25,878 nt of DNA from a virus, in the IMG/VR virus record IMGVR_UViG_3300015371_000153, positions 1-25,878 of that record; one strand, written 5' to 3'. Position 1 is the stretch's first letter. Every line of letters starts with the position of its first letter. Positions 1 through 23,397 of the stretch are shown here, in pieces. Made by a program: the position numbers and the translations under genes. The notes beneath the pieces are model-generated. The model was not told where the DNA came from. It searched no databases and saw only the letters and a list, made by a program, of their open reading frames with translations.

Positions 1-20
1 CCGTACAGTATGCGACGCAT
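1..20 (-). CDS. Start of a further gene, cut by the window edge
   Basis: The stop codon of the preceding 240-residue gene (TGA at 22-20) overlaps an ATG at 20-18 by one base, giving TGATG. This is the same coupled arrangement seen at several other junctions in this window. Only six codons (MRRILY) are inside the window, so no function can be given. The call rests on the coupling pattern alone. Confidence 0.35.
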
Positions 21-742
21 CAGCGGCGTATAACGTTCTTGGTGTTGTTCTCGTCGATCGGCACCTTGGTCCGTTCCTTGTCCTTTCTGAACGGATACTT
101 GGCAGTGATGTTCATGTTCTTGGCGCCACACCGTAGACAGGCACCTAGAGCGATTCCGGTAGCTCGGGTATTGATCTTTCCACCGAGTACCACGCAGTCA
201 TGAATCAATCCCGAGGATGCTCCGGCCGAACCGCCGCCTGGATTGCAGAAGAATGCTGCGTGCTGGGTATCCGGACCTCCGGTGTAGTCAAATCGCCGGA
301 TAGTGATATTCCAGCCGTTCATGATCTGCCAACCATCCTGATGCGGAATATGATCAGGATCGAAGGTGTCTTTCAGTTCCATGGCCACAGCCAAGCCAAT
401 CGAATGATCTACGACCAGGAAGCTGGTGCCATTACCCGCCTTGGCCAGATCCCGCTGTAGACCTTCACCCTGGATTAGACCAACGTGGCCTCGGATCCCA
501 CCTAGATGGAATCCATCAGTAGGCTTTCCCGAGAGGTCGCGCGGATCGGTAACCACCATCTCGTCGATGTCAACTTCAGTCGAGCCCTTGGTACCGTTGA
601 AGTTGATATCTCCGTGCTTCACGTAGATAGCCTTGACTCGAAGTAGTTTGACCGATTTGTCGACATTGACCGGTCCCTCATGCTGGATCACCTTGCCGCG
701 ATCGTTGATATCTCTCATGATATTCAACGCGGCAGTCGCCAT
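20..742 (-). CDS. Beta-helix-like hypothetical protein (240 aa)
   Basis: The ATG at 742 follows an AAGGAGGGAG ribosome binding site. The middle and C-terminal half (about residues 130-215) has the rhythm of a right-handed parallel beta-helix: DGWQIMNGWNITIRR at 136-150, then SGLIHDCVVLGG and GIALGACLRCGAKNMNI, with short beta-strands ending in Asn or Asp turns. Such folds occur in phage tailspikes and polysaccharide lyases, but I see no catalytic signature and no virion-attachment domain. A CxxC pair (Cys202, Cys205) could bind metal. The C-terminus is basic. The gene follows the 62-residue gene by 11 bases and probably shares its transcript. The beta-helix reading is inference from spacing patterns; a non-virion role is equally possible. 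Confidence 0.6.
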   Translation of the reverse strand: MATAALNIMRDINDRGKVIQHEGPVNVDKSVKLLRVKAIYVKHGDINFNGTKGSTEVDIDEMVVTDPRDLSGKPTDGFHLGGIRGHVGLIQGEGLQRDLAKAGNGTSFLVVDHSIGLAVAMELKDTFDPDHIPHQDGWQIMNGWNITIRRFDYTGGPDTQHAAFFCNPGGGSAGASSGLIHDCVVLGGKINTRATGIALGACLRCGAKNMNITAKYPFRKDKERTKVPIDENNTKNVIRR

Positions 743-752
743 GGCTCCCTCC

Positions 753-941
753 TTACCAGCGTAGATTGTACCCCTTGTGGTTCTGCAACATTGTGGTCAA
801 CACACAGATCTGGATGATCAACTGATCGCGTGCCGCCACGAGGTCTTCCATGCTACACTCGGTGGTTAGCGCCTTACCGAGCTGTTCGATGTTGTCGCCG
901 ATGCCCTGGACGATCGACCGCTTCTCCGGATCCATTTCCAT
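753..941 (-). CDS. Small hypothetical protein (62 aa)
   Basis: The start at 941 overlaps the upstream gene's stop by one base (TAATG), so translation is probably coupled. A second Met at residue 3 is an alternative start. The sequence is helical and mostly polar, with no membrane segment or signal peptide and two Cys. A stretch around residues 30-52 (MEDLVAARDQLIIQICVLTT) could be a short coiled coil. I do not recognise a family. It lies in the accessory unit that starts at the promoter-like element at 1725-1751. Confidence 0.6.
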   Translation of the reverse strand: MEMDPEKRSIVQGIGDNIEQLGKALTTECSMEDLVAARDQLIIQICVLTTMLQNHKGYNLRW

Positions 942-1201
942 TAGCGTGGGGAAGGTCCGTAGTGAGCGCCAACCACACGCAGGATATCCTCAGCAGTGAG
1001 AGTAACATCGGTGCAGCGATTCAGAGCTTCGCGTAGCATCCTACGGGCGTCATTCTTGGCCTCTGCGAAGCGAAACGTCAGGGCTGTGTATTCGGACTGA
1101 GTGACACGCTTATGTGTCGGAGCGGTCTCACCTTCGACCAAGCCCAGTGCCTCGAGCATGGTCCGGTATTCATCTTGCGTAACATTCTCCCATTTCTTCA
1201 C
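941..1201 (-). CDS. Small hypothetical protein, GTG start (86 aa)
   Basis: The frame stays open upstream to 1318, but that extension would overlap the secreted-protein gene by almost 90 bases and has only a TTG start. I chose the GTG at 1201 because AGGGGAG lies five bases upstream of it. The protein then begins VKKWENVTQDEYRTML. It is a predominantly helical, soluble, charged protein with two YRTML/YTALTF-type segments and an Arg-rich helix (NDARRMLREALNR). I recognise no family. It is about 30 bases downstream of the secreted-protein gene and coupled to the 62-residue gene. Confidence 0.6.
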   Translation of the reverse strand: MKKWENVTQDEYRTMLEALGLVEGETAPTHKRVTQSEYTALTFRFAEAKNDARRMLREALNRCTDVTLTAEDILRVVGAHYGPSPR

Positions 1202-1230
1202 GATGACTCCCCTATAGTGTGGATGGGATA

Positions 1231-1584
1231 TTAGTAGAGCTCCGTGTGGCACTTCATCGTCGAGTAGAGCAGGCTCGTCCGCCAGTAACGCAGCGAGTAG
1301 TACCAGGTCACCCGCCAAGTCCCATGGCAGGTAAAGCTGTATCCGTCGGGATCGGTACCGTCAATTTTCCCCATGCAGTTGACAGTCGAGCGACCCACTC
1401 GGTAGCATCCGGTGATGTCGGTCACCTGATAGCCACCGTCGTCCACCGACTCGTCGACGCTCCACACGAAGTCCTGAGCCTTCTCGTGTGCGGTGGGAAT
1501 CGACAGCCACGGCGAGGCCTGAGCCTGAGCCGGAGCCATGGCTGCGACAAGCAGCCCAAGCGTGATCGTGCGCTTCATACCCAT
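1231..1584 (-). CDS. Secreted small four-cysteine protein (117 aa)
   Basis: The ATG at 1584 (or the second Met two codons later) follows AGGAGAG with five bases of spacing; an upstream in-frame Met at 1629 has no such site. The N-terminus is a textbook Sec signal peptide: MGMKR, hydrophobic ITLGLLVAAMAP, then AQAQA-SP with likely cleavage after Ala23. The mature part is about 94 residues, rich in Tyr, Trp and Asp, with Cys at 60, 70, 86 and 112, which could form two disulfides outside the membrane. The C-terminal half contains FTCHGTWRVTWYYS. The pattern resembles small secreted actinobacterial proteins, but I cannot name a family. It is the first gene after the structured leader at 1609-1726. 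A role at the cell envelope is inference. Confidence 0.7.
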   Translation of the reverse strand: MGMKRTITLGLLVAAMAPAQAQASPWLSIPTAHEKAQDFVWSVDESVDDGGYQVTDITGCYRVGRSTVNCMGKIDGTDPDGYSFTCHGTWRVTWYYSLRYWRTSLLYSTMKCHTELY

Positions 1585-1608
1585 GTGTGCTCTCCTATAA
1601 TGGGGTGG

Positions 1609-1726
1609 AAAAAAATAGAGGCTCCGCATAGCGCAAGTGCCTCAATGAGACCCGAGCTGCATCAAAGCTCCCACAAGTCGGGAATATGATGTGGTGCCCC
1701 ACAGTCGGGGCTCCTACTCGGATCTC
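1609..1726 (-). ncRNA. Structured leader or small RNA candidate with terminator-like end
   Basis: This 118-base stretch lies between a promoter-like element and the secreted-protein gene. On the minus-strand RNA a 10-bp closing stem (1726-1717 with 1656-1647) pairs throughout with one G-U wobble; read as plus-strand RNA that pair would be a mismatch. Inside are hairpins GCCCC/GGGGC (1711-1696), UCCC/GGGA (1683-1669) and GAGCU/AGCUC (1670-1654). The last two share bases and so may alternate. A further stem GAGGC/GCCUC (1643-1618, with an inner CGC/GCG) is followed by UAUUUUUUU, like an intrinsic terminator or attenuator. If transcription starts about seven bases after the -10 box, the outer half of the closing stem would be missing. 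It could be a leader attenuator or a free small RNA. Confidence 0.5.
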
Positions 1727-1751
1727 ATTATAGGCCGTGTTTACGCCGCGA
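1725..1751 (-). promoter_or_regulatory. Promoter-like bipartite element, copy C
   Basis: The minus strand reads TCGCG, 14 bases, TATAATGA, with ACA at spacer positions 7-9 as in the other three copies. TATAAT is a perfect sigma-A type -10 box; no TTGACA-like -35 box lies at normal spacing, and TCGCG takes its approximate place. It overlaps the stop codon of the membrane-anchored HTH gene and precedes the structured leader of the secreted-protein gene. Confidence 0.65.
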
Positions 1752-2175
1752 CTTCGACTTCAACTCGCTCCAGCACATGGCCCGAAACGTGATCGCGCAG
1801 ACCATTCAGATGTCGAGACATCGTAGTCTCAGATACATCAAGTGCTTTTGCCGCCATCCTCTGAGATCCGTAATATAGATCCGTAGTAAGATCATGGATC
1901 AGATACGGCGGTCGTCCAATCTCCTGTCGAATAACGATATTCGACTGCTGGGAATTGAACGAAAAGAAAGACCGATTGGTAGCCGAAATCTCTGCAGTTT
2001 TCAGCCCATAGACTCGACTTAGCAGAAGAGTCTCAATACGGTCTTTCATTATAACGCATGTAATTGTCGCGAGGGCCGCGCCGCCTATCCCGGCAATGTA
2101 CTCTCGCTTGTGCTTTCGCACATGCATCTTCAATCGTTCGAGCTGAGGGAACTCGACCTTGTGATCGTGCTGCAT
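1741..2175 (-). CDS. Membrane-anchored protein with C-terminal helix-turn-helix (144 aa)
   Basis: I chose the ATG at 2175 because AGGAG lies six bases upstream; an in-frame Met five codons earlier lacks this. Residues 1-25 are His/Lys/Arg-rich, then YIAGIGGAALATITCVIM (26-43) is a single likely transmembrane helix. A linker follows. Residues 91-140 read as a NUMOD1-like or resolvase-like HTH: YLIHDLTTDLYYGSQ, then QRMAAKALDVSETTMSRHLNG. Similar short proteins with a basic-TM-HTH plan are familiar to me from actinobacteriophages and are annotated as hypothetical. It has its own promoter-like element and hairpin leader, and a further copy of the element lies inside its coding sequence. A DNA-binding or membrane-tethering role is inference. 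Confidence 0.7.
   Translation of the reverse strand: MQHDHKVEFPQLERLKMHVRKHKREYIAGIGGAALATITCVIMKDRIETLLLSRVYGLKTAEISATNRSFFSFNSQQSNIVIRQEIGRPPYLIHDLTTDLYYGSQRMAAKALDVSETTMSRHLNGLRDHVSGHVLERVEVEVAA
2046..2072 (-). promoter_or_regulatory. Promoter-like bipartite element, copy D (intragenic)
   Basis: The minus strand reads TCGCG, 14 bases, TATAATGA, with ACA at spacer positions 7-9, at the same spacing as the three intergenic copies. It lies inside the coding sequence of the membrane-anchored HTH gene, over its transmembrane codons, and faces the same way. No obvious ribosome binding site and start follow directly, so it may be an internal promoter, a binding site, or a fortuitous match. Confidence 0.45.
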
Positions 2176-2198
2176 ACGGTTCTCCTGCAAATAGTGGG

Positions 2199-2256
2199 AA
2201 AAAATAGGAAGGACGATAGTCGTCCGCGCCTCTGGGGGGAGGCATAACTATCGCCC
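2199..2256 (-). terminator. Hairpin plus U-run in leader (attenuator-like)
   Basis: On the minus-strand RNA a 10-bp stem (2256-2247 with 2220-2211, one G-U wobble) encloses a second stem GCCUC/GAGGC (2243-2239 with 2232-2228). Six bases beyond the base of the stem lies a run of six U (2204-2199), then the ribosome binding site of the 144-residue gene. The wobble pair favours a minus-strand RNA. It begins only four bases after the -10 box of promoter copy B, so it may act as an attenuator, a leader structure or a small RNA. Confidence 0.5.
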
Positions 2257-2257
2257 T

Positions 2258-2284
2258 TCATTATAAGCCCTGTTTTTTTCGCGA
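2258..2284 (-). promoter_or_regulatory. Promoter-like bipartite element, copy B
   Basis: The minus strand reads TCGCG, an A-rich 14-base spacer with ACA at positions 7-9, then TATAATGA. It lies between the terminator hairpin at 2307-2339 and the hairpin leader of the 144-residue gene, which is where a promoter for that gene is expected. Confidence 0.7.
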
Positions 2285-2303
2285 GAAAAATTAGAACCAA
2301 GGT

Positions 2304-2339
2304 AAAACGAGGACGCCATGCTTGACATGACGCCCCCGT
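2304..2339 (-). terminator. Rho-independent terminator candidate
   Basis: Just after the 93-residue gene (stop at 2360) the minus-strand RNA forms a 14-bp stem, 2339-2326 with 2320-2307. All positions pair, including three G-U wobbles, around a five-base loop UCAAG, followed by UUUU. A short U-tract is the only weakness. It would end the transcript started at promoter copy A before promoter copy B begins the next unit. Confidence 0.65.
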
Positions 2340-2359
2340 CTGACCTTCGTTGGATTGTG

Positions 2360-2641
2360 TTATCGCAGTCTGGGCAGGAAGCTTAGAGCTTTCGTGCTGA
2401 TCACGTTGAATCGCTCGTGCTTGAGGATCAGCATGATCCCGAACAGATGTGCAGCGATCGTGGCTAGAGTGTCCGGATGCACCGATGTGGATCTTTCTGC
2501 TGTCCGCATCTTATGCAACTCGAGCACCCTATTCAGGATTACTCCGTACTCTTCGGAATCAGTCCGATACAACTTCAGCTCGAGAAACGCTTCGTGAATC
2601 GCCTTCTCTAGATCTAAGTTTCTCTGGCTGGGCCGGAACAT
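2360..2641 (-). CDS. Conserved small phage protein (93 aa)
   Basis: The ATG at 2641 follows AAGGAG with five bases of spacing. The N-terminal half is helical and charged (LEKAIHEAFLELKLYRTDSE), then VHPDTLATIAAHLFGIMLIL (54-73) forms an amphipathic to hydrophobic helix, then KHERFNVISTKALSFLPRLR. The DTLA..A.LLGI.LIL.HER.NVI.SKALSF pattern is familiar to me from many actinobacteriophage and other phage genomes as a small protein of unknown function near the lysis or tail end. The hydrophobic segment may associate with membrane. It is a single-gene unit between promoter copy A and the terminator at 2304-2339. Confidence 0.75.
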   Translation of the reverse strand: MFRPSQRNLDLEKAIHEAFLELKLYRTDSEEYGVILNRVLELHKMRTAERSTSVHPDTLATIAAHLFGIMLILKHERFNVISTKALSFLPRLR

Positions 2642-2660
2642 ACATCTCCTTAGTTGGGTC

Positions 2661-2687
2661 TCATTATAAGCGATGTTTGTTCCGCGA
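2661..2687 (-). promoter_or_regulatory. Promoter-like bipartite element, copy A
   Basis: The minus strand reads TCGCG, 14 bases with ACA at spacer positions 7-9, then TATAATGA. The -10 box is about 21 bases ahead of the ATG of the 93-residue gene, leaving a leader of roughly 15 bases that holds the AAGGAG site. It overlaps the very end of the holin-like gene. A TTGACT also occurs upstream, but 20 bases from the -10 box, longer than usual. Confidence 0.7.
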
Positions 2688-2690
2688 AAG

Positions 2691-3068
2691 TCAAACCTCC
2701 GGCGGAGGCGGTGGCTTTCGTTTAACTACCTGGAACTTGACTTCTTTATGGGGGTCGACAATATCGTCTGGATGTCCTGTCAACTCCAGCGAATATTGTT
2801 TGGCACCACCGGGACCGGTATCCGTTACCACGATATCTCCGGCATAGCCGGGGTCTGGTACTCCAGCTTGTACCTTGGCATCGTGCAATCTCTCACGGGC
2901 ATAGACCGCTCCGGCAGTAAGTAGCCCCACGAATATCGAACTGAGAAATTGGGCCCGATCGCTTGGATTCAGAATATCGATTACTCCAATAGCCAAGATC
3001 GTAGCGAAGAACGAAACTACCCCAGACCATATAGCGATTGGATGATCCCATAGGTTTTTACTACGCAT
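2691..3068 (-). CDS. Putative holin, two membrane helices (125 aa)
   Basis: Residues 11-33 (beginning IAIWSGVVSFFATILAIGV) and 41-57 (FLSSIFVGLLTAGAVYA) are two likely transmembrane helices joined by a short NPSDRAQ turn. They are followed by a charged soluble tail of about 65 residues that ends in a Pro run (KRKPPPPPEV). Size, two-helix plan and position straight after the last tail gene fit a phage holin or lysis accessory protein. The start overlaps the preceding stop by eight bases. The tail is longer than in many small holins. The endolysin is about 20 kb away, so the lysis assignment rests on membrane topology and position only. A membrane-bound virion or exclusion protein remains possible. 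Confidence 0.6.
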   Translation of the reverse strand: MRSKNLWDHPIAIWSGVVSFFATILAIGVIDILNPSDRAQFLSSIFVGLLTAGAVYARERLHDAKVQAGVPDPGYAGDIVVTDTGPGGAKQYSLELTGHPDDIVDPHKEVKFQVVKRKPPPPPEV

Positions 3069-5517
3069 TGAACATCATCAGATTGAGGATTTGCGGCGGC
3101 CAAGGAGTCTTACCATCCCAGATAGGCGTAGCTCCTCCGCCATCATCGCCGCCCTCGCTTGGTGGAGGTGTTGGATTGATACCCCAACCATCGCCATCGT
3201 ACACCTTCGTTCCAACTCCAGTAGCGATGTCGAATATCCAAATTGGCGATTGTGGACGACGGTCGACAACCGCAATTTTGGTGCCGTCAAAGCTCCAAGC
3301 TATCGGACCAGACAGCATCAATATGGTTTGATCTTCATCTTCGACTGGATTGATTGGATCTACATACGGTGGTGTGTGATACAGCAATGTTGCTCCTGAT
3401 CCATCGGGATTGCCAATGAACAGCCAGCGCTCTCCACTTGCTCCACCGTCGGCGAATGTGGTTTCTGTCCAGACAATCTTGGAATGATCCGGAGACATGA
3501 AAACGTTACTCAGAGCATCTTCTTGGACAATGCTATACGTATTGACAGTTTCGGCAACTACATCATACACGATATAGTTGGCTCCATCTATCTCGGCATA
3601 GAGCTTCACCGAATCTGCAGACCATCGCAAGAGTATGAAGTACTCAAGCGGGTCTAGACCTAGTGCTATTTCGTACAAACCAGATGCATCGGCATTACAT
3701 AGCCAGTGATGTGCCTCATAACCTGATGTTGTAAATCCAGGACGTCGGAAATATAGCTTTGATCCATCCGGCGAAGGAACATGATCGGAATGTGTTATCT
3801 CTTGATCCCCTGGAGCTATTGGGAATGTCTCAGCAGGGAAGAACACTTCCAAATCTACATAATCCGGGAAAGGCGTATTACCTTGGAATATGTCAACCTT
3901 TCTGCCGCCAAGCATATTATCTCTTCGTTTGCTCACGTACATATGGATATCGCCAAGCGAGTCGACAGTAGACTTGGACCATATCCCAGCACGTTCGCTA
4001 ATATCGAAATCCAGACCCTCATTCGAGGCGGAATCGGTAATCTCGGTTATTAGCTGCTGCTTGGTGCTTCCATCCGACTTGATCAAGTAGTAAATAAGTC
4101 TCGATGTACCAGAACCCTCGATATTGTCGGTAAAAGTAGTCCAGAATCTCAGAACGAGTTTCTGATGATCGGCGGTCCATTGTTCGGGAGTGAGGCTTCC
4201 TTGCTCATCGGATGAAATTGGCATGAGCTTGGCATCCGGAGAAATGCCACCAACCAGCCGAGGCAGCATAGGACTACGGACATAACTGAAAACAAAACGA
4301 GCAGGCTTTGGCTCTGTGATGTAGATAGGATTACTCTCTACACCCAGAACTCCACCAGAGCCCAAATCCTTGTCGAAATCAAACAATGCCGGATCAAGAA
4401 TATTGAACGTAGGATATTCTCTGAATCCGTATTGATCTTGAGCCCGAATATGTTCAATTATCTGAACTGGTGCTAGTAGACCATCACTACTTTGGAGCTC
4501 AATTACATCGCCCAGAAAATAGTCATGAGCGAACTTATGTCCAGATATGGTTGTGACTTGCCCATCCACCACTGATGTTTGCATGTAGTGGACAAAGGCA
4601 TTGAATGCCACTTGCCGTCGAAACTTCAGATTCTTCTCCGAGTCATCGGTCTGCGAATCTGGAGCATCGATTCGAATGATTCGACGTTTGAATCCGCGAG
4701 GAACATAGCCACCGGAGTAATGTGGAGTCAGTTCATTCTCGTACATCACATAAATAACGTTCTTGTAATGTTCCCACGAGAACAACTGCTTCTCATCTAG
4801 CAAGGAATCCATGTCCGGACTCATACGAATCAGTCGATGAATATCCTGATTGCTAGTTCGATTGACTCCACGATAGGTGTAAAAGCCTAGCTCGTAAACT
4901 CCGCTAATGGCCGATGCCGATTCCAAATATAGCTTGAAGCCCAGCTTCTGTTCAGTGGCAAATTTCTCGATACCGTCATAGATGGGCCCAATTGGGAATC
5001 TCAGCGTTTTGACATCCCCATTGTCATCAACCGCGACAATCTGTAGACCGGGAATGACTTCCATCGCCCAATCGAAATTAAGCCCGGCATAGAAATCTGT
5101 GTAGGTCTCGGGCGCGATGAGGGTCTTGACGATGACATTGGTAAGAAATTGACCAGCGTTCAGAGTGTCATCAATCAGATCCGCATAGTTCTTAGCGTTG
5201 GGATCAGTCGGATCGTAATTTGGATCTGGAAATAGCGCTTCTCGCTCGTTGAAGAACTTGATCAACGATGAGCCAGTCACCGTCAGCAGACCCTTCTCGA
5301 TCGAACGAGTCTCGATCTGCATGATTTCCTTGCTTCCGTTCATAGCAAGGAATCGGCCTCGAGCGAGCTCGGTGGCTATGATCGACGGTGCTAGTACTAC
5401 CAGCTGAAAATCGCCGGCGGAAGAATATCGCTCTGTCCAAATCGCTGAAATATACGGTTCGATGAGCTTCCTTGGCATGAAGTTATCATCCAAGGTATAG
5501 AGTTCCATACGATCCAT
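3061..5517 (-). CDS. Gp37-like tail protein fused to a TolB/WD40-like beta-propeller (818 aa)
   Basis: The N-terminal part (about 1-390; ELYTLDDNFMPRKLIEPYIS, then WTERYSSAGDFQLVV) matches the plan of the siphovirus ReqiPepy6 Gp37-like family of tail-tip proteins. This includes the late segment GHKFAHDYFLGDVIELQ typical of Gp37-like and Tal-type proteins. From about 405 to 775 the chain changes to propeller-like blades: SPDGSKLYFRR (582-592), WSADSVKLYAEIDG, SPDHSKIVWTE (675-685) and SFDGTKIAVVDRR...IWIFDIATG (742-767). The C-terminus has a Pro/Gly linker and a short tail. The gene starts immediately after the stop of the distal tail gene (TAA-ATG). The family normally sits just after the distal tail protein; the propeller would be exposed at the tip and could bind the host. 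No peptidase motif was seen. Confidence 0.75.
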   Translation of the reverse strand: MDRMELYTLDDNFMPRKLIEPYISAIWTERYSSAGDFQLVVLAPSIIATELARGRFLAMNGSKEIMQIETRSIEKGLLTVTGSSLIKFFNEREALFPDPNYDPTDPNAKNYADLIDDTLNAGQFLTNVIVKTLIAPETYTDFYAGLNFDWAMEVIPGLQIVAVDDNGDVKTLRFPIGPIYDGIEKFATEQKLGFKLYLESASAISGVYELGFYTYRGVNRTSNQDIHRLIRMSPDMDSLLDEKQLFSWEHYKNVIYVMYENELTPHYSGGYVPRGFKRRIIRIDAPDSQTDDSEKNLKFRRQVAFNAFVHYMQTSVVDGQVTTISGHKFAHDYFLGDVIELQSSDGLLAPVQIIEHIRAQDQYGFREYPTFNILDPALFDFDKDLGSGGVLGVESNPIYITEPKPARFVFSYVRSPMLPRLVGGISPDAKLMPISSDEQGSLTPEQWTADHQKLVLRFWTTFTDNIEGSGTSRLIYYLIKSDGSTKQQLITEITDSASNEGLDFDISERAGIWSKSTVDSLGDIHMYVSKRRDNMLGGRKVDIFQGNTPFPDYVDLEVFFPAETFPIAPGDQEITHSDHVPSPDGSKLYFRRPGFTTSGYEAHHWLCNADASGLYEIALGLDPLEYFILLRWSADSVKLYAEIDGANYIVYDVVAETVNTYSIVQEDALSNVFMSPDHSKIVWTETTFADGGASGERWLFIGNPDGSGATLLYHTPPYVDPINPVEDEDQTILMLSGPIAWSFDGTKIAVVDRRPQSPIWIFDIATGVGTKVYDGDGWGINPTPPPSEGGDDGGGATPIWDGKTPWPPQILNLMMFNA

Positions 5518-23046: not shown

Positions 23047-23397
23047 CTAAACTGGAGGCGAATCCAGAGGCGGCTGATCGGGCGACTGCTGATCGGGCGG
23101 CGTTTCCTCGGACGACTGATCCACAGGCGGCACCACATCCGGGTGAGCCGCGTGGGCGTCATTGACGGCCTGCTCCAGATTCGCAGCCAGGGCATTCAGC
23201 TGATCCGTAGCTGCCTGAACATCACCAGTGCTGGAGACGGCATTCGCCAGTTCGCGCATTTCCGCAGTCGCATCTGCGACAGCCTGGGCCATCGCATTCA
23301 TTGCGTCAGCTAGAGCCATTATACTCCGATCTAGATGTAGTATGTCATGGTGCAGCCAGGCATAACGTTCACCTGGATGCAGAAAGTCTGGAGACAT
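23047..23397 (-). CDS. Ala-rich coiled-coil protein with Pro-rich tail (116 aa)
   Basis: The ATG at 23397 overlaps the upstream stop (TAATG). A second in-frame ATG at 23319 (Met27) has GGAG five bases upstream and may be the main or an additional start. Residues 27-85 are Ala-rich and coiled-coil-like (MALADAMNAMAQAVADATAE, then LNALAANLEQAVNDAHAAH); residues 86-116 are Pro, Asp and Gln-rich (VVPPVDQSSEETPPDQQSP). No family recognised. It could be a small virion or regulatory protein. Third positions are G/C-rich like the capsid gene, which hints at high expression. Confidence 0.6.
   Translation of the reverse strand: MSPDFLHPGERYAWLHHDILHLDRSIMALADAMNAMAQAVADATAEMRELANAVSSTGDVQAATDQLNALAANLEQAVNDAHAAHPDVVPPVDQSSEETPPDQQSPDQPPLDSPPV

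Follow-up and report, generated by a model that had tools for sequence, protein, structure and literature searches.

The DNA analyzed here (the whole 25,878-nt stretch, hereafter the window) is a 25.9-kb siphovirus fragment whose gene content includes terminase, portal, head maturation protease, tape measure, and Gp37-like proteins. Its portal is 60–65% identical to portals of Arthrobacter, Gordonia, and Streptomyces phages. The accessory region directly follows the structural genes and holds four exact copies of the pattern TCGCG-N6-ACA-N5-TATAATGA, all on the minus strand. The features of this region are as follows.

2661–2687, minus strand: putative promoter copy 1, TCGCGGAACAAACATCGCTTATAATGA; exact match; predicted start at G 2662; precedes the 93-aa ORF
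2360–2641, minus strand: 93-aa ORF of unassigned function (phrog_5818), proposed to be driven by copy 1
2294–2351, minus strand: long terminator-like hairpin at the end of unit 1 (fold z −8.7)
2258–2284, minus strand: putative promoter copy 2, TCGCGAAAAAAACAGGGCTTATAATGA; exact match and PWM; predicted start at G 2259
2208–2259, minus strand: predicted 52-nt hairpin RNA with a C-rich apical loop (GCCUC-CCCCCA-GAGGC), then CUAUUUUUU (fold z −4.9)
1741–2175, minus strand: 144-aa ORF (phrog_27818) with an N-terminal transmembrane (TM)-like segment, a variable linker, and a C-terminal HTH/NUMOD-like domain
2046–2072, minus strand: putative promoter copy 3, TCGCGACAATTACATGCGTTATAATGA; exact match; in frame within the 144-aa ORF; predicted start at G 2047
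1966–2047, minus strand: predicted 82-nt three-way-junction RNA in the linker region of the 144-aa ORF (fold z −5.4), with homologues in loci L076 and L063
1725–1751, minus strand: putative promoter copy 4, TCGCGGCGTAAACACGGCCTATAATGA; exact match and PWM; predicted start at G 1726
1612–1726, minus strand: predicted ~115-nt RNA consisting of a closed three-way junction (1726–1647) and a terminator hairpin (about 1643–1618) with a U tract (fold z −4.5)
1231–1602, minus strand: 123-aa ORF downstream of unit 4, apparently encoding a signal peptide (sequence reading)

The four copies had been proposed as promoter-like elements in a first-pass annotation of this DNA; on rescanning, all coordinates and the ACA at spacer positions 7–9 were exact. 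Copy 1 lies at the start of an accessory unit, as annotated, and the copy described as intragenic is copy 3. The additional claim that these are the only perfect TATAAT boxes on the minus strand had to be dropped, since a fifth, without TCGCG, lies at 23318–23323. With up to two mismatches allowed, five matches were found in the window compared to a mean of 0.54 in shuffled sequences; the fifth was an unrelated two-mismatch site at 715–741. When scored by a PWM trained on other phages, the four copies reached 33.1–38.5 bits, compared to −2.5 bits for the next best site in the window and a maximum of 0.5 bits for the reversed PWM, which served as a control; the gap between the copies and the rest of the window exceeds 35 bits.

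The same pattern, TCGCG-N6-ACA-N5-TATAATGA, was found in at least 120 stretches in IMG/VR, with up to seven copies per locus among the matches listed. The reversed pattern gave 16 matches and a block-swapped pattern gave 5, one per contig. All sites had a single-strand orientation in each of the 161 loci with at least two sites. An RBS and an ORF were located within 75 nt downstream of 253 of 310 sites, compared to 65–73 at control places. Occurrence at chance frequency and the lack of a bias toward gene starts had been named beforehand as grounds for abandoning the motif, and neither was found in the genome scans and controls. TATAAT alone occurs in the window at chance frequency (7 compared to 5.8 expected), as would be anticipated if the copies were chance repeats combined with an AT-rich coincidence. 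However, the full motif is far above shuffles and recurs across phages, and with these controls refuting it, the coincidence reading has a negligible probability.

The homologues of the 93-aa ORF are only 26–47% identical to it, yet 60 of 61 keep the element (with up to three mismatches) 15–40 nt upstream of the start codon; this 61-site sample is partly motif-dependent, some of the loci having been fetched via the motif itself. In Streptomyces phage RosaAsantewaa (gene 26) and Gordonia phage Burley (gene 37), too, a homologue is preceded by this promoter. In the aligned sites, conservation is limited to TCGC(G/A), an A/T-rich run, ACA, a C-rich pair, TATAAT, and GAGACCC. Because positions −40 to −26 carry almost no information across the 61 orthologous sites, no −35 hexamer can be recognized. 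The hexamer expected 16–18 nt upstream of the −10 box of sigma-70 promoters was thus missing from the 61 sites, and a sigma-70 consensus scan of the window did not report the four copies for lack of a −35. What is expected of phage-RNAP promoters, a repeated, unidirectional motif at the starts of transcription units, was observed. These comparisons support the view that the element is a conserved phage promoter, YTCGC(G/A)-N6-ACA-N5-TATAATGA.

Such a promoter could also be served by a host sigma-70-type RNAP that uses TATAAT as its −10 box, with a MotA-like phage activator bound to TCGCG-N6-ACA replacing the −35. TATAAT is indeed the sigma-70 −10 consensus, and the TCGCG block is located about where T4 MotA boxes lie. 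However, the GA after TATAAT is also conserved in the footprint, and the predicted position of the transcription start, considered below, is at odds with sigma-70 use.

A stable closed-stem RNA is predicted to begin at each of copies 2, 3, and 4 (fold z −4.9, −5.4, and −4.5), and the G next to TATAAT, taken as offset 0, is the first base of its outer stem. Predicted closed-stem small RNAs likewise start at the motif at dozens of sites elsewhere. A stem arising from offsets 3–9 and followed by a U-rich tail was detected at 48 sites across phages compared to 12.7 in shuffles. In these 48 sites, offsets 2, 1, and 0 were paired in 92, 88, and 94% of cases, and the T at −1 in 35%, which matches the permutations. 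A second, independent stem test placed the boundary at the same G. Permutations pair offsets 0 and 1 about equally often because the partners are nearly always pyrimidines; the evidence for the start is the sharp pairing boundary and not covariation at offsets 0 and 1.

Since stem complementarity ends exactly at the G after TATAAT, transcription probably begins at this G and not 6–8 bases later. A sigma-70 start 6–8 nt downstream would leave outer stem pairs untranscribed. The RNA stems reach a position 6–8 nt too early for a host polymerase assisted by an activator, which is indirect evidence against such a start. TATAATGA, whose TATAAT had been annotated as a −10 box, is probably an initiation region and not a sigma-70 −10. 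The stem test concerns the 5′ end of the mature RNA, and processing could mimic the boundary. If the element were a repeated operator or an RNA-processing site, with units cut from long read-through transcripts, the location of all sites on one strand and the structured RNA adjoining many of them would be explained. This reading is very improbable, since the sites are at a fixed distance from RBS-ORFs and the footprint is conserved mainly in the part upstream of the RNA 5′ end.

No gathering score was reached in an Rfam search of positions 1–3600 of the window (the best hit was a chance match to mir-71, E = 3.5), and a tRNA scan of the window returned none. A search with nhmmer for the copy 2 and copy 4 RNAs revealed no homologues among the fetched loci. 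C-rich loops of some Gram-positive small RNAs pair with ribosome-binding sites, and it may be speculated that the C-rich loop of the copy 2 RNA resembles them.

Copy 3 is read in frame as ..TITCVIM(K) at the end of the TM-like segment of the 144-aa ORF, and its RNA spans the linker. In the homologues of this ORF, the N-terminal TM-like and C-terminal HTH/NUMOD-like domains are conserved and the linker is highly variable. The nesting was also found in distant homologues: L029 (ITCLIMRG), L063 (two ORFs), and L108/L346 (ITCLIVRG). In L076, the frame is kept and a stop codon is located just upstream. Inspection of the alignments revealed no nested copy in the homologues from L290, L013, L061, and L054. 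The RNAs from the window and from L076 and L063 can be aligned, and their common fold preserves 12 of 30 pairs through changes on both sides. As this stretch also encodes protein, the covariation among three sequences shows apparent selection on the RNA on top of the protein frame.

Relatives encode a phrog_4291 protein of ~880–1000 aa that is usually annotated as an HTH protein; the label of the family itself is “RNA-dependent RNA polymerase.” DFDGD is invariant in 48 of 48 aligned members, and the protein contains the DxDGD motif in a double-psi beta-barrel by which two-barrel single-chain RNAPs are recognized. Its AlphaFold2 model (pLDDT 79.6) matches QDE-1 with Z ~18 and P23-45–type phage RNAPs with Z ~14, and the fold match spans residues 227–715. 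HTH-like segments are present in the N-terminal region and at the C terminus, the latter with weak sigma region 4–like matches.

The polymerase was found in 65 of 112 motif contigs and in 49 of the 54 that are at least 40 kb long (tallies for contigs of this length were summed by hand from per-contig tables). None of 21 control contigs contained it, one giving an HTH-only match. Contigs picked by polymerase alone carried the motif, with up to two mismatches, in about four fifths of cases (21–22 of 27), and no reversed matches; an exact-motif search of these contigs gave few matches until it was relaxed to accept G or A as the fifth base, along with other mismatches. The motif is also present in RosaAsantewaa and Burley, and in none of the non-polymerase controls. 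Overall, the motif was found where the RNAP is present and was absent where the RNAP is absent, except for five motif contigs of at least 40 kb in which phrog_4291 was not found. One of these, L114, has a single site inside a tail-like gene, which may be due to chance; the others (L116, 79.7 kb; L013; L037; and L083) may be incomplete or encode a divergent polymerase.

In bacterial contigs, mostly from Clostridia, whose polymerases are 43–56% identical, 40 motif matches compared to 0 reversed matches were obtained. Of the 40, 39 are on the polymerase strand, often as TTTTATGA. In these variants, the A at position 2 of the presumed −10 is lost, while TCGCG, ACA, and TGA stay, which again argues against a host sigma-70 enzyme with a phage activator. 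Any conserved protein of the lineage could be the required factor, given that RNAP and portal co-occur almost 1:1, but with both the predicted start position and the variants against it, we consider this explanation unlikely.

The phrog_4291 gene is absent from the window, which is a fragment. All relatives of the window’s portal on contigs of at least 40 kb have both the polymerase and the motif, and the closest long-enough portal relatives in IMG/VR carry the motif; a 31-kb contig with a 75% identical portal has eight copies. In INPHARED, the polymerase is present in 250 records and the window’s portal in 256, with equal counts for Arthrobacter, Gordonia, Streptomyces, Lactococcus, Curtobacterium, Rhodococcus, and Microbacterium. 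Since the two proteins mark almost the same phages, the window’s phage is expected to carry a polymerase gene. The main weakness of this evidence is that co-occurrence does not distinguish the polymerase from any other core gene of the lineage.

We propose, with a probability of roughly 0.78, that the four copies are promoters for the phage-encoded single-chain two-barrel RNA polymerase phrog_4291. What was observed is the motif with its footprint, its bias toward gene starts, and its co-occurrence with the polymerase, together with the RNA folds and the covariation of one RNA; transcription itself, its exact start, and its dependence on the polymerase are inferred. Probably unaided by a sigma factor, the enzyme would read TCGC(G/A) at −25 to −21 and ACA at −14 to −12 (counted with the G after TATAAT as 0), separated by an A/T-rich spacer, and would open TATAAT at −6 to −1. 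RNA would start at the G right after TATAAT, yielding 5′-GARR transcripts. Promoters in the accessory region would drive short terminator-ended units, copy 1 giving small mRNAs and copies 2 to 4 closed-stem small RNAs. In the latter, the purine 5′ end would pair with the pyrimidine stretch just before the U tract. The first-pass annotation is thus borne out as to a phage-specific promoter; its suggestion of a phage-modified polymerase or activator came close, but a complete phage-encoded RNA polymerase is better supported.

The promoter may belong to the phage polymerase and yet owe its specificity to a separate phage factor, the polymerase alone not recognizing the element. The polymerase is co-inherited with other core genes, and the need of YonO, another phage RNAP, for extra factors was left open (PMC5467207). 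As the polymerase has its own HTH segments at both ends, the C-terminal one weakly resembling sigma region 4, this variant is possible but rather doubtful. On balance, we favor the broader view that a large, widespread group of phages and prophages relies on a sigma-independent single-chain polymerase, with a bipartite promoter abutting the start, to make accessory mRNAs and small structured RNAs of many unrelated families, one promoter-plus-RNA gene being placed in frame in a membrane-protein gene.

Promoters of T7/SP6 single-subunit RNAPs are compact (~30 bp), reach the start site, and have TATA just before the G at which transcription starts. The element is likewise compact, extends to the predicted start, and has TATA just before a G, but the polymerase fold is unrelated and sequence and spacing differ. 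The different fold rules out TATAATGA as a T7-type promoter. In T4 middle promoters (MotA/AsiA), a block near −30 replaces the −35 hexamer and is combined with a good TATAAT. The element shares this layout, but neither its predicted start position nor its variants agree with use by sigma-70.

The non-virion RNAP gp64 of P23-45 is, like phrog_4291, a single-chain two-barrel phage enzyme with its own promoter motif and a similar fold (Z 14, 8f72 and 8f5m chains). Its proposed promoter motif, derived from starts mapped by ONT-cappable-seq, is GC-rich, weakly conserved, and described for one Thermus phage group (PMC10770324). By that description it is set apart from the strongly conserved, bipartite element found in Actinomycetota phages and Clostridia contigs. 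SPbeta YonO, the best-studied relative, is likewise a phage RNAP with two barrels in a single chain. Its start was mapped ahead of yonK and an unannotated ncRNA, its promoter sequence was stated to be unknown, and whether YonO-type enzymes find promoters alone was left open (PMC5467207). YonO belongs to phrog_8308 (E = 0), while the phrog_4291 RNAP matches phrog_8308 only with E = 1.2e-4, around the catalytic segment. Because of this weak match, membership of phrog_4291 in the YonO family was rejected, and the two are distant relatives from different families; an hhalign comparison of the RNAP alignment with YonO as a single sequence was uninformative. The motif was not found in 25 kb of SPbeta that included the YonO promoter region.

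Neither a published promoter for the phrog_4291 RNAP family nor a description of the motif was found in the literature searched; the start signal of these enzymes appears to be previously undescribed. Its sharp consensus makes the questions of the YonO-type promoter and of stand-alone recognition directly testable. It belongs to a family present in 250 sequenced phage records, including culturable Arthrobacter, Gordonia, and Streptomyces phages, and would allow regulon mapping of an RNAP type thought to be close to the root of cellular polymerases. The results also point to a protein gene that contains, in frame, a promoter together with an RNA gene, and to many unannotated phage small RNAs, without an Rfam match in the scanned loci except for one tRNA-like RNA.

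In many bacterial contigs, a motif copy is located ~1 kb upstream of the polymerase gene (for example, L398:9012, L445:9049, L449:9019, and L380:9052), with a short RNA-like stretch, GAAGAGA..., after it. The location upstream of the polymerase gene possibly reflects autoregulation.

Several motif-driven RNAs of related loci have features of their own. Among 12 such loci, Rfam gave only one weak tRNA match (L081:1790-1842), the sole one at the tRNA threshold. tRNA-like T arms were noted at this place and in L022 (-1661), L048 (-6418), and L126:22436-22522; CCAGGUUCGAUCCCUGG from Gordonia phage Burley is an example. A recurrent RNA with AGACACGAA ... TTTTCGTTGG was found in L076 (-12394), L025 (+4841), L090 (-12976), L031 (+3229), L027, L022, and L017. 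Pairing between these segments could form a pseudoknot (ACGAA/TTCGT); the L017 version, CTATCAA/TTGATAG, differs by a compensatory change. The motif-driven RNA of L024 (site +10959) contains three tandem 29-nt hairpin repeats, TCTAGGTCAGCGCTATGCGAAGACCGAAA, and in this it is like a multi-site binding RNA.
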